Source of the DNA: Burkholderiales bacterium | GTDB taxonomy: Bacteria; Pseudomonadota; Gammaproteobacteria; Burkholderiales; Burkholderiaceae_E | DNA: 10,427 nt | Direction: 5' to 3' | NCBI GenBank assembly: GCA_020348765.1 | Contig: CP070753.1 | Location: 2,443,913-2,454,339, forward strand | Part shown: positions 4,718 through 8,995 of the stretch, piece by piece | Numbering within the stretch: the stretch's first letter is position 1 | How the letters are laid out: each line of letters opens with the position of its first letter | The notes under the pieces: generated by a model | Database searches by the model: none | Seen by the model: the letters and a program-made list of their open reading frames with translations, nothing else | What the model was told of the DNA's origin: nothing | Translations under genes and position numbers: made by a program

Positions 4718-4793
<76 letters not shown>

Positions 4794-6123: not shown

Positions 6124-6849
6124 ATGAAATTCCGAGTGCTGCTGACCGCCGCGGTTGCGGCCCTGACCACCTTCGCGGGATCCGCGTCGGCGAATTCCGA
6201 TTCGGTCAAGGCCGCGGTCGAGGCCTGGCTCAACGGCCGCTTCAAGGTGCAGGAAGTGCGCAAGTCGCCGGTGCCGGGCATCTACGAGGTGCGCATCGGC
6301 AACGACCTGCTGTACGCGCACGAGGACGGCCAGTACGTGTTCGTCGAGGGCCAGCTGATCGACATGAAGTCGGGGGTCAGCCTGACCCGGGCGCGGCTGG
6401 ACGAGATCCTGCGCATCGACTTCAAGACGCTGCCGCTCGAGCTGGCGATCAAGGAGGTCAAGGGCGACGGTAAGCGCGTGTTCGCGATCTTCGAGGACCC
6501 GAACTGCCCGTACTGCCGCAAGCTGCGCACCGAGATGGAGCAGCTCAGCAACGTCACGATCTACACCTACGCGATCCCGATCCTGTCGCCCGACTCCGAG
6601 CGCAAGGTACGTGCGGCCTGGTGCGCCGAGGACCGGGTCGAGGCCTGGAACGAACTGCTGATCCACGGGACGGTGCCGGCCAACGACGGCAAGTGCGACG
6701 TGCCGGTGCCGGCGCTGCTCGAGCTGTCGCGCAAGCTGGGCGTGACCGGCACTCCGACGATCTTCCTGACGACCGGGCAGCGCGTGCCCGGCGCGGTCCC
6801 GCTGCAGCGGCTCGAGCAGCTGCTGGACGCGGCCGCCCGCGCCAGCTGA
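6124..6849 (+). CDS. dsbC: Thiol:disulfide interchange protein DsbC
   Basis: DsbC is a periplasmic dimeric disulfide isomerase kept reduced by DsbD; it reshuffles wrong disulfides in secreted proteins. The 241-residue product starts with a signal peptide (MKFR, a hydrophobic stretch, likely cleavage after ASA at 23). The N-terminal dimerisation domain spans roughly 24-85. A linker helix follows, then a thioredoxin fold with the active site FEDPNCPYCRKL (Cys128, Cys131) and the cis-proline loop TGTPT (Pro211). A second cysteine pair (Cys167, Cys191) matches the structural disulfide known in DsbC. The CPYC motif differs from the CGYC of E. coli. GGAG six bases before the ATG supports the start. 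It is probably co-transcribed with the hydroxylase 21 bases upstream. The last codons and the stop lie inside a 23-bp tandem repeat. Confidence 0.95.
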   Translation: MKFRVLLTAAVAALTTFAGSASANSDSVKAAVEAWLNGRFKVQEVRKSPVPGIYEVRIGNDLLYAHEDGQYVFVEGQLIDMKSGVSLTRARLDEILRIDFKTLPLELAIKEVKGDGKRVFAIFEDPNCPYCRKLRTEMEQLSNVTIYTYAIPILSPDSERKVRAAWCAEDRVEAWNELLIHGTVPANDGKCDVPVPALLELSRKLGVTGTPTIFLTTGQRVPGAVPLQRLEQLLDAAARAS

Positions 6850-6899
6850 TCGGAGCCGGCCGCGCCGGCTGATCGGGGCCGCCCGCGCCAGCTGATCGG
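6831..6899. repeat. Three tandem 23-bp repeats across the dsbC stop codon
   Basis: Units at 6831-6853, 6854-6876 and 6877-6899 each contain GCC(A/G)GCTGATCGG. The first and third are identical; the middle differs at three positions. The first copy holds the last codons and TGA of dsbC, so the other two are non-coding duplicates of the gene's end. Confidence 0.9.
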
Positions 6900-6943: not shown

Positions 6944-8320
6944 TCAGCGTGTCGCTGCCGCGGCAGACATCGCCGGTATCGGCGGCTCCTGGCCTCGCGG
7001 CCACAGCAGCCAGAGCCGCATCCGGGCGCGCATGACGCCGGCTTCGCGCTGCGCCCGGTCGCCGGCACCCCAGAACAGGTCGGCACGGATCGCGCCCCGG
7101 ATCGCGCCGCCGGAGTCCTGTGCCAGCGCCAGCCGGCGCACCGGGGCACCGTCCAGCCGGTGGTCGCTGGTGAAGTACACGAACGAGCCCAGCGGCACGG
7201 CCGCCGGGTCGATCGCCAGCGAGCGCAGCGGCGTCAGCGGCACGCCCATCGATCCCGGCGGGCCTTCCTCGGGGTCGGCGGCCGGCGGCAACTCGCGGAA
7301 AAACACGTAGCTCGGATTGCGCTGCATCAGCTCCCGAGCCTGGCCCGGGTGGGTCGCGAGCCAGGCCCGGATCGCCGGCGCACTGACATCTTCCAGGCTC
7401 AGCGCGCCGCGTTCGACCAGCTCGCGGCCGATCGCGCGGTAGGGATGGCCGTTCTGGTTCGCGTAGCCGACGCGCACGGTGCTCCGGTCGGGCAGGCGCA
7501 CCTTGCCCGAGCCCTGGATCTGAAGGAAGAAGGCATCGACCGCGTCGTCGACCCAAAGGATCTCGTGGCCTGTCAGCGCGCGACCGTTCTCGATCTCGGC
7601 CCGACTCCAGTACGGAACGACGCGCTTGCCGTCGAGCCGGCCGCGCAGCCGCAGCCCGCGGGTCTGCGGATAGACCGCCGCCAGGTCGATGACCAGCAGG
7701 TCGTCGGGCTGGCGGTACAGCGGGACCTGGTACGGGCCGCCGCGCTCGCGGCTGCCATTGAGCAGCGGTTCGTAATAGCCGGTCAGCAGGCCCGTGTCGC
7801 GCGTGGCACCTTCGCGGTCTGTGACCTCGATCGCGTAGGCGTCGAAGCGCGATTCGATCCACGCGCGCAGCGCTGGGCCGGAGCGCGATCGAGCCTCGTC
7901 GCACAGTCCGGACCAGGCGAAAGCGCTGCGGCTGGCATCGCACTGGCGCGCGATCGCGCGTTCCAGGTCCGCGAGCGGGTCCGTGTGCCATCCGGGTATC
8001 GCAGCGAACGTGGCGGGAAGCAGCCGCACCCCGGGTTCGGTCGGGCGCGGTGCCACCGAGCATCCCGCGATGGCGACGGCGAGCACGAGGAGCAAGGCCC
8101 GCGGCAGCCGGGCCCAGGGCAGCCGGGCCCAGGGCAGCCGGGCCCAGGGCAGCCGGGCCCGCGGCAGCCGGGCCCAGGGCAGCCGGGCCCAGGGCAGCCG
8201 GGCCCAAGGCAGCCGGGCCCAGGGCAGCCGGGCCCCACTCGGCGAAAGGCTCGCGCGCGCTGTGCAAGCCCCGTGCGTCTTAGAATCCGGGCGTCGAGCG
8301 AGGTCGGACATGTGGGTCAT
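6944..8320 (-). CDS. mltA: Membrane-bound lytic murein transglycosylase A, with repeat-expanded N-terminus
   Basis: MltA is an outer-membrane lipoprotein that cleaves the MurNAc-GlcNAc bond of peptidoglycan, forming 1,6-anhydro ends. Family motifs: TGYYEPLLNGS (residues 180-190), LQIQGSGKVRL (266-276), VGYANQNGHPY (284-294), then the 3D-type barrel with ALAQDSGGAIRGAIRADLFWG, where Asp402 is the probable catalytic acid. A lipobox IAGC puts the lipidated cysteine at residue 87. Before it lie a hydrophobic core (ALLLVLAVAIAG) and nine in-frame pentapeptide repeats (ARLPW or ARLPR, about residues 30-75), so the pre-sequence is far longer than the usual 15-30 residues. No in-frame ATG or GTG occurs between 8311 and the hydrophobic core. 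A TTG at 8095 would leave no basic N-terminal region, so the start must be 8320 or 8311. The start overlaps the divergent small gene by up to 11 bases. The enzyme call is firm; the N-terminus is the doubtful part. Confidence 0.92.
   Translation of the reverse strand: MTHMSDLARRPDSKTHGACTARASLSPSGARLPWARLPWARLPWARLPWARLPRARLPWARLPWARLPWARLPRALLLVLAVAIAGCSVAPRPTEPGVRLLPATFAAIPGWHTDPLADLERAIARQCDASRSAFAWSGLCDEARSRSGPALRAWIESRFDAYAIEVTDREGATRDTGLLTGYYEPLLNGSRERGGPYQVPLYRQPDDLLVIDLAAVYPQTRGLRLRGRLDGKRVVPYWSRAEIENGRALTGHEILWVDDAVDAFFLQIQGSGKVRLPDRSTVRVGYANQNGHPYRAIGRELVERGALSLEDVSAPAIRAWLATHPGQARELMQRNPSYVFFRELPPAADPEEGPPGSMGVPLTPLRSLAIDPAAVPLGSFVYFTSDHRLDGAPVRRLALAQDSGGAIRGAIRADLFWGAGDRAQREAGVMRARMRLWLLWPRGQEPPIPAMSAAAATR
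8096..8235. repeat. 15-bp minisatellite, nine copies, inside mltA
   Basis: GGCAGCCGGGCCC starts at 8103, 8118, 8133, 8148, 8163, 8178, 8193, 8208 and 8223, always 15 bases apart, with a partial copy (GGCCC) at 8096. The two joining bases are AG in most units, GC at 8101 and 8161, and AA at 8206. The GC variants lie 60 bases apart, suggesting a four-unit block was duplicated. Each unit encodes ARLPW or ARLPR on the minus strand. Confidence 0.97.
8281..8286 (+). promoter_or_regulatory. Putative -10 box of the small membrane protein gene
   Basis: TAGAAT lies 23 bases before the ATG at 8310, giving a short leader that contains GAGG. No clear -35 hexamer is visible. The same TAGAAT form occurs upstream of rpe in this window. 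Confidence 0.4.
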
Positions 8321-8393
8321 CTATCTCGAGGCTGCCGTAGCCGTCGGCCTGCTGCTGCTGATCGTCTGGTGGACGATGCGGGGCAAGAAGTAG
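8310..8393 (+). CDS. Predicted 27-residue single-pass membrane protein
   Basis: The ATG at 8310 has GAGG six bases upstream and a TAGAAT box before that; the frame ends in TAG at 8391-8393. The product begins MWVIYLEAAVAVG, continues with a leucine-rich hydrophobic stretch (LLLLIVWW), and ends in a basic tail (TMRGKK). This is the layout of a single transmembrane helix with the C-terminus in the cytoplasm. I have an impression of similar small proteins in Burkholderiales but cannot name a family or function. It is head-to-head with mltA, and the first bases of the two genes overlap. A 16-bp palindrome nine bases after the stop could end its transcript. The frame stays open upstream through the mltA repeats, but that part is antisense to mltA and is not claimed as coding. 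Confidence 0.6.
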   Translation: MWVIYLEAAVAVGLLLLIVWWTMRGKK

Positions 8394-8401
8394 CAAGGGT
8401 A

Positions 8402-8417
8402 GCGCAGGCGCCTGCGC
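8402..8417. terminator. 16-bp perfect palindrome after the small membrane protein gene
   Basis: GCGCAGGCGCCTGCGC reads the same on both strands and begins nine bases after the stop at 8393. It could form a terminator hairpin or bind a dimeric protein. No T-tract follows. Confidence 0.35.
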
Positions 8418-8600
8418 GCGGCCTGGACCGAATCGGGTGCGCGCCGGTGCGGCTTCTGCCAGGCGGGCCAGCTGCTGTTCAGCGCCGGGCCGCTGCATCG
8501 CGCCGGCCGCCTCGTGCCGGGCCTTGCGCGTTGGGGGCGATTCGGCTGCCAGCCCGTCAGCGCGGGCACCTTTGCCGAGTCGGCCGCCCGGCTGACAGCC

Positions 8601-8615
8601 CGGCCGTGGCGGCCG
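8601..8615 (-). terminator. Possible hairpin downstream of apaG
   Basis: CGGCCG at 8601-8606 and 8610-8615 can pair around three bases, just beyond the apaG stop. An 11-base direct repeat (CGGCCGCCCGG at 8581 and 8610) overlaps it. There is no T-tract. The rest of 8418-8600 shows no gene I can support. Confidence 0.25.
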
Positions 8616-8620
8616 CCCGG

Positions 8621-8995
8621 TCAGTGCAATGCGCCCGGCGCGACCAGCGCGAACTCCGGAATCGGCACTTCGAACCGGTTTCCGTCCTCGGCGACGAAGA
8701 AATACGCGCCGCGCATCGAGCCGGTGGACGTGGCCAGCGGCGAGCCGCTGGTGTACTCGAAGCTCTCGCCGGCGCGAAGCAGCGGCTGGTGCCCGACCAC
8801 GCCCAGCCCCTTGACCTCGGTGACCTGCCCGCTGGCATCGGTGATGATCCAGTGCCGGCTGATCAGCTGCGCGGCAACCCGTCCGGTGTTTCTGATCGTC
8901 ACGGTGTATGCGAACAGGTAGCGGCCCTCACCCGGATCGGACTGCTCGGGCAGGAATCTTGGCTCGACATGGATTCGGAACTCGTAGTCGCTCAC
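8621..8995 (-). CDS. apaG: ApaG domain protein (Co2+/Mg2+ efflux protein ApaG)
   Basis: ApaG is a small fibronectin type III-like beta-sandwich protein; its gene name comes from Co2+ resistance and low Mg2+ phenotypes in enterobacteria, and the molecular role is unsettled. From the GTG at 8995 the product has 124 residues, against 125 in E. coli. Characteristic stretches are YEFRIHVEPRFLPEQSDP, YTVTIRNTG, LISRHWIITDASGQ, then VKGLGVVGHQPLL and YTSGSPL followed by GSMRGAYFF. The frame is open to an ATG at 9040, but that extension is arginine-rich and outside the family length, so I chose GTG, which has AGG seven bases upstream. It is transcribed divergently from rpe across a 94-base gap containing an inverted repeat. 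Confidence 0.94.
   Translation of the reverse strand: MSDYEFRIHVEPRFLPEQSDPGEGRYLFAYTVTIRNTGRVAAQLISRHWIITDASGQVTEVKGLGVVGHQPLLRAGESFEYTSGSPLATSTGSMRGAYFFVAEDGNRFEVPIPEFALVAPGALH

Follow-up and report, generated by a model that had tools for sequence, protein, structure and literature searches.

A private 15-bp repeat array ahead of the MltA lipoprotein signal in an array-rich Burkholderiales genome

The window, a stretch of 10,427 nucleotides from a Burkholderiales genome, carries nine tandem 15-bp units directly in front of the lipoprotein signal of mltA. This array is best read as a private minisatellite in an array-rich genome, through which mltA is likely translated from the ATG at 8311 or 8320, and which is probably functionally passive. 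A probability of about one half is assigned to this reading as a whole.

Results

The mltA reading frame lies on the minus strand (6944..8320) and encodes 458 aa when read from ATG 8320, or 455 aa when read from ATG 8311. Its product belongs to the MltA family, with the Pfam domains MltA (PF03562, 213.8 bits) and 3D (PF06725, 69.5 bits) both above the cut-off. The match to the NCBIfam equivalog PRK11162 was below the cut-off (148.8 of 242). The solved MltA chain 7esj_A was aligned over residues 85-442 of the 455-aa form with 284.6 bits. The neighbours identified by their domains are dsbC, apaG and rpe, together with a phosphatase-like frame recognised by eye. A search for RNA families across the window returned a tRNA at 4721-4793 only, and no consensus sigma-70 promoter or terminator was found at 7900-8640. 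The window also contains a second tandem array, made of three copies of a 23-bp unit (6832..6899, plus strand) at the 3' end of dsbC, the first copy of which holds the dsbC stop codon.

The lipoprotein signal of MltA, ALLLVLAVAIAG-C, was recognised by eye. Its hydrophobic core and lipobox are located at 8060..8098 on the minus strand, with the Cys codon at 8062-8060, and the in-frame codons TTG 8095 and GTG 8086 lie inside it. The lipobox Cys (IAGC) is residue 87 when counted from ATG 8320, as the earlier note had calculated, and residue 84 from ATG 8311. The 74 residues preceding the core contain 14 Arg and one Lys.

The array itself was detected by TRF at 8103-8235, with a period of 15, 8.9 copies, 94% matches and a score of 245. 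Read in the phase of mltA, it consists of nine 15-bp units at 8099..8233 on the minus strand (GCCCGGCTGCCCTGG), and both sets of coordinates are consistent with the 8096-8235 first proposed for it. From 8233 to 8099 in the mltA frame, units 1-4 and 6-8 encode ARLPW and units 5 and 9 ARLPR, in agreement with the repeats described in the earlier note. Only three copies deviate from the rest: unit 2 has CCTTGG, where the CCT is silent, while units 5 and 9 have CCGCGG, which replaces Trp by Arg. The last unit (ending CTGCCGCGG) adjoins the hydrophobic core. The presence of nine in-frame units ahead of the signal core was thus borne out both by TRF and by the unit-by-unit reading.

Chance is excluded as the origin of this array, since the best TRF score in 100 dinucleotide-preserving shuffles of the window was 70 (median of the maxima 43) against the observed 245. 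With its near-identical units arranged head to tail and within about 10-100 bp, the array is a minisatellite. It is not a phase-variable contingency locus, in which the unit is not a multiple of three and the frame is switched, since its unit is 15 bp. The longest exact repeat within the array is 51 bp. All six frames of the array are free of stops, and an open frame across it therefore cannot be taken as a sign of coding. RNA structure was considered as a function of the array and rejected. The mltA mRNA strand has a predicted fold of -99.7 kcal/mol versus -93.6 for shuffles (z -1.57) and the plus strand one of -100.1 (z -2.70), and such folding is expected from a GC-rich unit with GGGCCC.

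Tandem arrays are abundant in this genome. A sample of 20 stretches of 20 kb from the genome record (G000), corresponding to 392 kb without N, or 13%, contained 112 non-redundant arrays with a score of at least 50, of which 39 had a score of at least 100 and are called strong here. This amounts to 9.9 strong arrays per 100 kb, or about 300 genome-wide if the 13% sample is typical. Five relatives, sampled over 80 kb each, gave 0, 6, 0, 1 and 1 strong arrays (0, 7.5, 0, 1.2 and 1.2 per 100 kb); when weak arrays were included, G007 had 33.8 arrays per 100 kb, more than the 28.6 of the window's genome. According to a crude gene finder, by which 89.5% of the sample is coding and about 10.5% non-coding, the 39 strong arrays comprise 23 intergenic ones, seven that straddle a gene end and nine inside predicted genes. 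Arrays being this common and mostly located in spacers, the mltA array needs no special role. Its score of 245 is higher than that of every sampled array (maximum 221).

It had also been emphasized that the repeated unit is a multiple of three. This holds for a unit of 15 bp, but the property is not distinctive, as 17 of the 52 arrays between genes share it; the corresponding counts were 43 of 52 in genes and three of eight among those straddling a gene end. Among strong arrays, the period is divisible by three in all nine within predicted genes versus five of the 23 intergenic ones. The 15-bp period as such was rejected as a special feature, minimal periods of 12, 14 and 21 being commoner (14, 13 and 12 arrays versus 9).

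The 12-bp core GGCAGCCGGGCC of the mltA unit forms two arrays in the window's genome. The other one, also with a 15-bp period, is found at positions 1501-1598 of locus L002 (G000:C1:1187441-1187538), immediately before a start codon assigned by eye to accD, and adjoins a 100-N gap. In a collection of genome contigs that may omit the window's genome, a single record, from Pseudosporangium ferrugineum, matched three copies of the core exactly. There was thus no sign of an element common to relatives, and the idea of a special unit sequence was dropped. Another case of a repeat near a gene start was seen at L077 4705-4829, where a 30-bp array lies in frame close to the 5' end of a gene with a CMAS domain and before a later ATG, which may be the true start of that gene.

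The mltA locus was then compared in related genomes, a check that the earlier note had proposed. Of 80 relatives searched, 76 had an mltA match, and TRF was run on the loci of 43 of these, covering at most 480 bp on and beside the signal peptide. No counterpart emerged, since none of the 43 loci has a comparable array ahead of the lipobox (TRF scores from 40 up). Weak arrays were present in 12 of the 43 loci, with a score above 70 in L025 only. Array-like matches in other relatives were rejected as counterparts; they proved to be tandem repeats of different sequence (six loci run), matched because the repeat was part of the query. Among the best 120 of 7998 candidate proteins scored, one is near-identical, P0001, which is the window's own and comes from one contig; the next is 60% identical, and no second strain was found. 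An MltA scan of genome contigs confirmed no relative. L025 itself (G030, genus g12) has a 24-bp in-frame array with a score of 164 in the linker that follows the MltA Cys, where its congeners L027 and L039 have none by TRF. The N-terminal region of MltA thus accepts in-frame arrays elsewhere too.

Two candidate start codons for mltA, ATG 8320-8318 and ATG 8311-8309, are located at 8309..8320 on the minus strand, with a TAG stop directly upstream. There is no in-frame ATG, GTG or TTG between ATG 8311 and the TTG at 8095 inside the core, which favours translation through the array. An in-frame ATG is found at the place of 8320/8311 in 11 of the 43 relatives' loci, belonging to three genera of the same family: six to g15 (ITHM), three to g12 (MTHI) and two to g3 (MTHI, MTHM). 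In these 11 loci the ATG overlaps the start of a divergent small ORF, and the signal peptide behind it has its Cys at position 24-36 of the line-up. In the remaining 32 loci the start is elsewhere or unclear. Because this ATG position is kept in the 11 relatives, mltA most likely starts upstream of the array. On these sequence grounds mltA would most likely be translated through the array, at odds close to even.

The divergent small ORF (8310..8393, plus strand; MWVIYLEAAVAVGLLLLIVWWTMRGKK) is a 27-aa membrane ORF with a single span. Within the palindrome CATG, its start codon and ATG 8311 of mltA overlap. Its sequence here is MWVIYLEA...IVWWTMRGKK, with one hydrophobic span. The window is one of 33 loci, out of 44, in which a version with the WWT motif lies divergently upstream of mltA. 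In 14 versions of 26-27 aa, pN was lower than pS in 91 of 91 pairs (means 0.18 versus 0.48). No Pfam family matched the small ORF at E 0.001, no NCBIfam family was above cut-off for the window's version and those of four relatives, and a literature search on its neighbourhood found nothing.

The hexamer TAGAAT at 8281..8286 (plus strand), 29 nt before the small ORF's ATG, is its probable -10 box. An exact TAGAAT occurs within 80 nt upstream of the small ORF in 10 of the 33 loci, and at most twice in any of 1000 shuffled sets; it stands 28-29 nt before the start in the window and in L049, L050 and L051. A stricter consensus promoter scan found no promoter at the small-ORF leader. The hexamer and the overlap with the leader indicate that 8234-8308 would be the leader of the small ORF, its probable promoter and possible MltA code. 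In L004, L005, L006, L013 and L014, all of genus g15, a -10-like box for the small ORF was recognised by eye (TATGAT or GATAAT) within the AIIA codons of the mltA signal peptide, and one stretch seems in these loci to act both as mltA code and, on the opposite strand, as a promoter.

The same stretch raises the main alternative, which is possible but clearly less probable than translation through the array. The array would be an untranslated spacer, mltA would start inside it at a CTG or in the core at TTG 8095 or GTG 8086, and the region up to ATG 8311 would be only the promoter and leader of the small ORF, as the TAGAAT box would suggest. The stretch from ATG 8311 to the array (8234..8308, minus strand; SDLARRPDSKTHGACTARASLSPSG), which overlaps the small-ORF leader and the -10-like box, has codon usage like that of non-coding DNA. 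Its 26 codons gave -0.60 log-odds per codon with a codon table derived from 181 long ORF segments in the window's genome. As few as 0.33% of 2131 coding windows, drawn from the same segments, are that low, and 96.2% of non-coding windows are higher or equal. Among 66 control genes whose ATG is supported by a Shine-Dalgarno sequence, the lowest value for codons 2-26 was -0.44, so that none came down to this level.

Some relatives score poorly at this place as well, in a comparison that is rough because the table is that of the window's genome. Over 26 codons from the start inferred at this place, the window locus is lowest (-0.64), followed by L005 (-0.54), and ten others are at -0.24 or above. 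Over the first 15 codons, L051 (-0.57), L050 (-0.41) and L005 (-0.40) are all below the window locus (-0.29). With such relatives also scoring low, the codon test leans against coding without settling the matter. Codon usage was dropped as decisive proof against coding, given L005 nearly as low in the first measure and three relatives lower in the second. Part of the low score may stem from the overlap with the small-ORF leader.

A start inside or after the array is also favoured by other observations. The database-predicted protein P0001 (407 aa, MPRARLPW...) begins inside the array, in unit 5, where the window has CTG, and the crude gene finder, with ATG, GTG and TTG as permitted starts, chose GTG 8086. 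The CTG of the last unit would yield MPRALLLVLAVAIAGC, a textbook lipoprotein signal peptide. The location of most strong arrays outside genes and the array of the L077 CMAS-domain gene point in the same direction. Translation through the array is further disfavoured by the stable predicted fold of its mRNA strand, and by the relatives seen, none of which combines a comparably long stretch ahead of the core with an equally clear start. However, CTG starts are rare, no purine-rich ribosome site was seen by eye before the CTGs of the array, and the array RNA is very stable. With a start at TTG 8095 or GTG 8086, the core would be preceded by no basic residue, and the ATG kept in 11 of 43 relatives argues for the upstream start. 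The earlier view that the array is translated as part of MltA is therefore strengthened by the conserved ATG place and weakened by the 26 non-coding-like codons before the array and by the database protein that starts within it.

Discussion

The array occupies a short divergent spacer between the 27-aa membrane ORF and mltA. Under the favoured explanation, a private minisatellite that is read through with MltA, it would have grown by duplication of a stretch beside the mltA signal core, where a short direct repeat would have been multiplied by slippage or by unequal recombination. The MltA precursor would carry an unusually long (71-74 residues) and arginine-rich stretch ahead of the core, which would be cleaved off with the signal peptide at the lipobox Cys and tolerated by the cell. 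The array would have been retained because a multiple-of-three unit keeps MltA readable, frame compatibility being in that case a filter on surviving repeats rather than the sign of a switch. The structural part of the earlier interpretation is more likely than its rivals.

An assembly error, either in the copy number or in the joining of the array to mltA, is improbable. The assembly is fragmented: the G000 record has 3.02 Mb and is listed as 57% complete, with many 100-N gaps and 7777 N in the 400-kb sample, and the array on the accD side adjoins such a gap. However, the longest exact internal repeat of 51 bp means that longer k-mers would resolve the array, and one 150-base read, if the reads were of that length, could span its 133 bp. 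The flanks are also consistent, with the small ORF and apaG on one side and the signal core and MltA on the other.

The earlier note had further suggested that the number of units could tune how MltA is exported or lipidated in different strains. In this reading the copy number would be an adaptive rheostat, acting between strains or between cells. The multiple-of-three unit, the near-identical copies, the site just before the core and a score above anything in the 392-kb sample would fit such a role. It is nonetheless quite improbable, as the genome has many arrays, mostly in spacers, a third of the spacer arrays have a multiple-of-three period (17/52), and the array is absent from all 43 relatives' loci. 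The closest protein after the window's own, at 60% identity among the best 120 of 7998 candidates, offered no strain comparison. Export tuning by copy number is thus unsupported beyond the position and the period of the array. Quite improbable, too, is the elaboration in which the minisatellite is an expandable n-region whose unit count sets the rate of MltA export, while per-unit CTG starts set the mix of N-terminal forms.

If translated, the array would make a natural signal peptide with an n-region expanded by repeats to more than 70 residues, and a limit case for the sequence that the export machinery tolerates ahead of the core. In a repeat-rich, high-GC genome, stop-free spacer arrays are easily absorbed into reading frames, so that "in-frame repeats" call for a test of the start site first. 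The small membrane ORF, conserved and sharing its start with mltA, may be a clearer lead than the array. Literature searches on repeats in signal peptides, long signal peptides and MltA with repeats gave no direct match, as judged mostly from search results.

Among known systems, bacterial minisatellites or VNTRs resemble the mltA array in their short, near-identical head-to-tail units, with many loci per genome that are mostly in spacers. In PMC2884548, minisatellites are counted among the small segments that vary between strains, and the units considered in that paper are at least 20 bp, versus 15 bp in the mltA array. The mltA array differs from these systems in reaching the region of a lipoprotein signal peptide, and it is seen here in one genome. 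Regarding the MltA lytic transglycosylases, the window gene shares with them the MltA and 3D domains and the match to solved chains, but it has an array before the lipobox with no comparable one in the 43 relatives' loci. In the carbapenemase BKC-1, the signal peptide has been altered by an internal duplication, but in that enzyme the duplication affects the hydrophobic part and its function has been assayed, whereas in MltA nine units precede an unduplicated core and are known from sequence alone. Finally, the long signal sequences of autotransporters are a feature of a class of secreted proteins, whereas the mltA array is a private repeat on a lytic transglycosylase.
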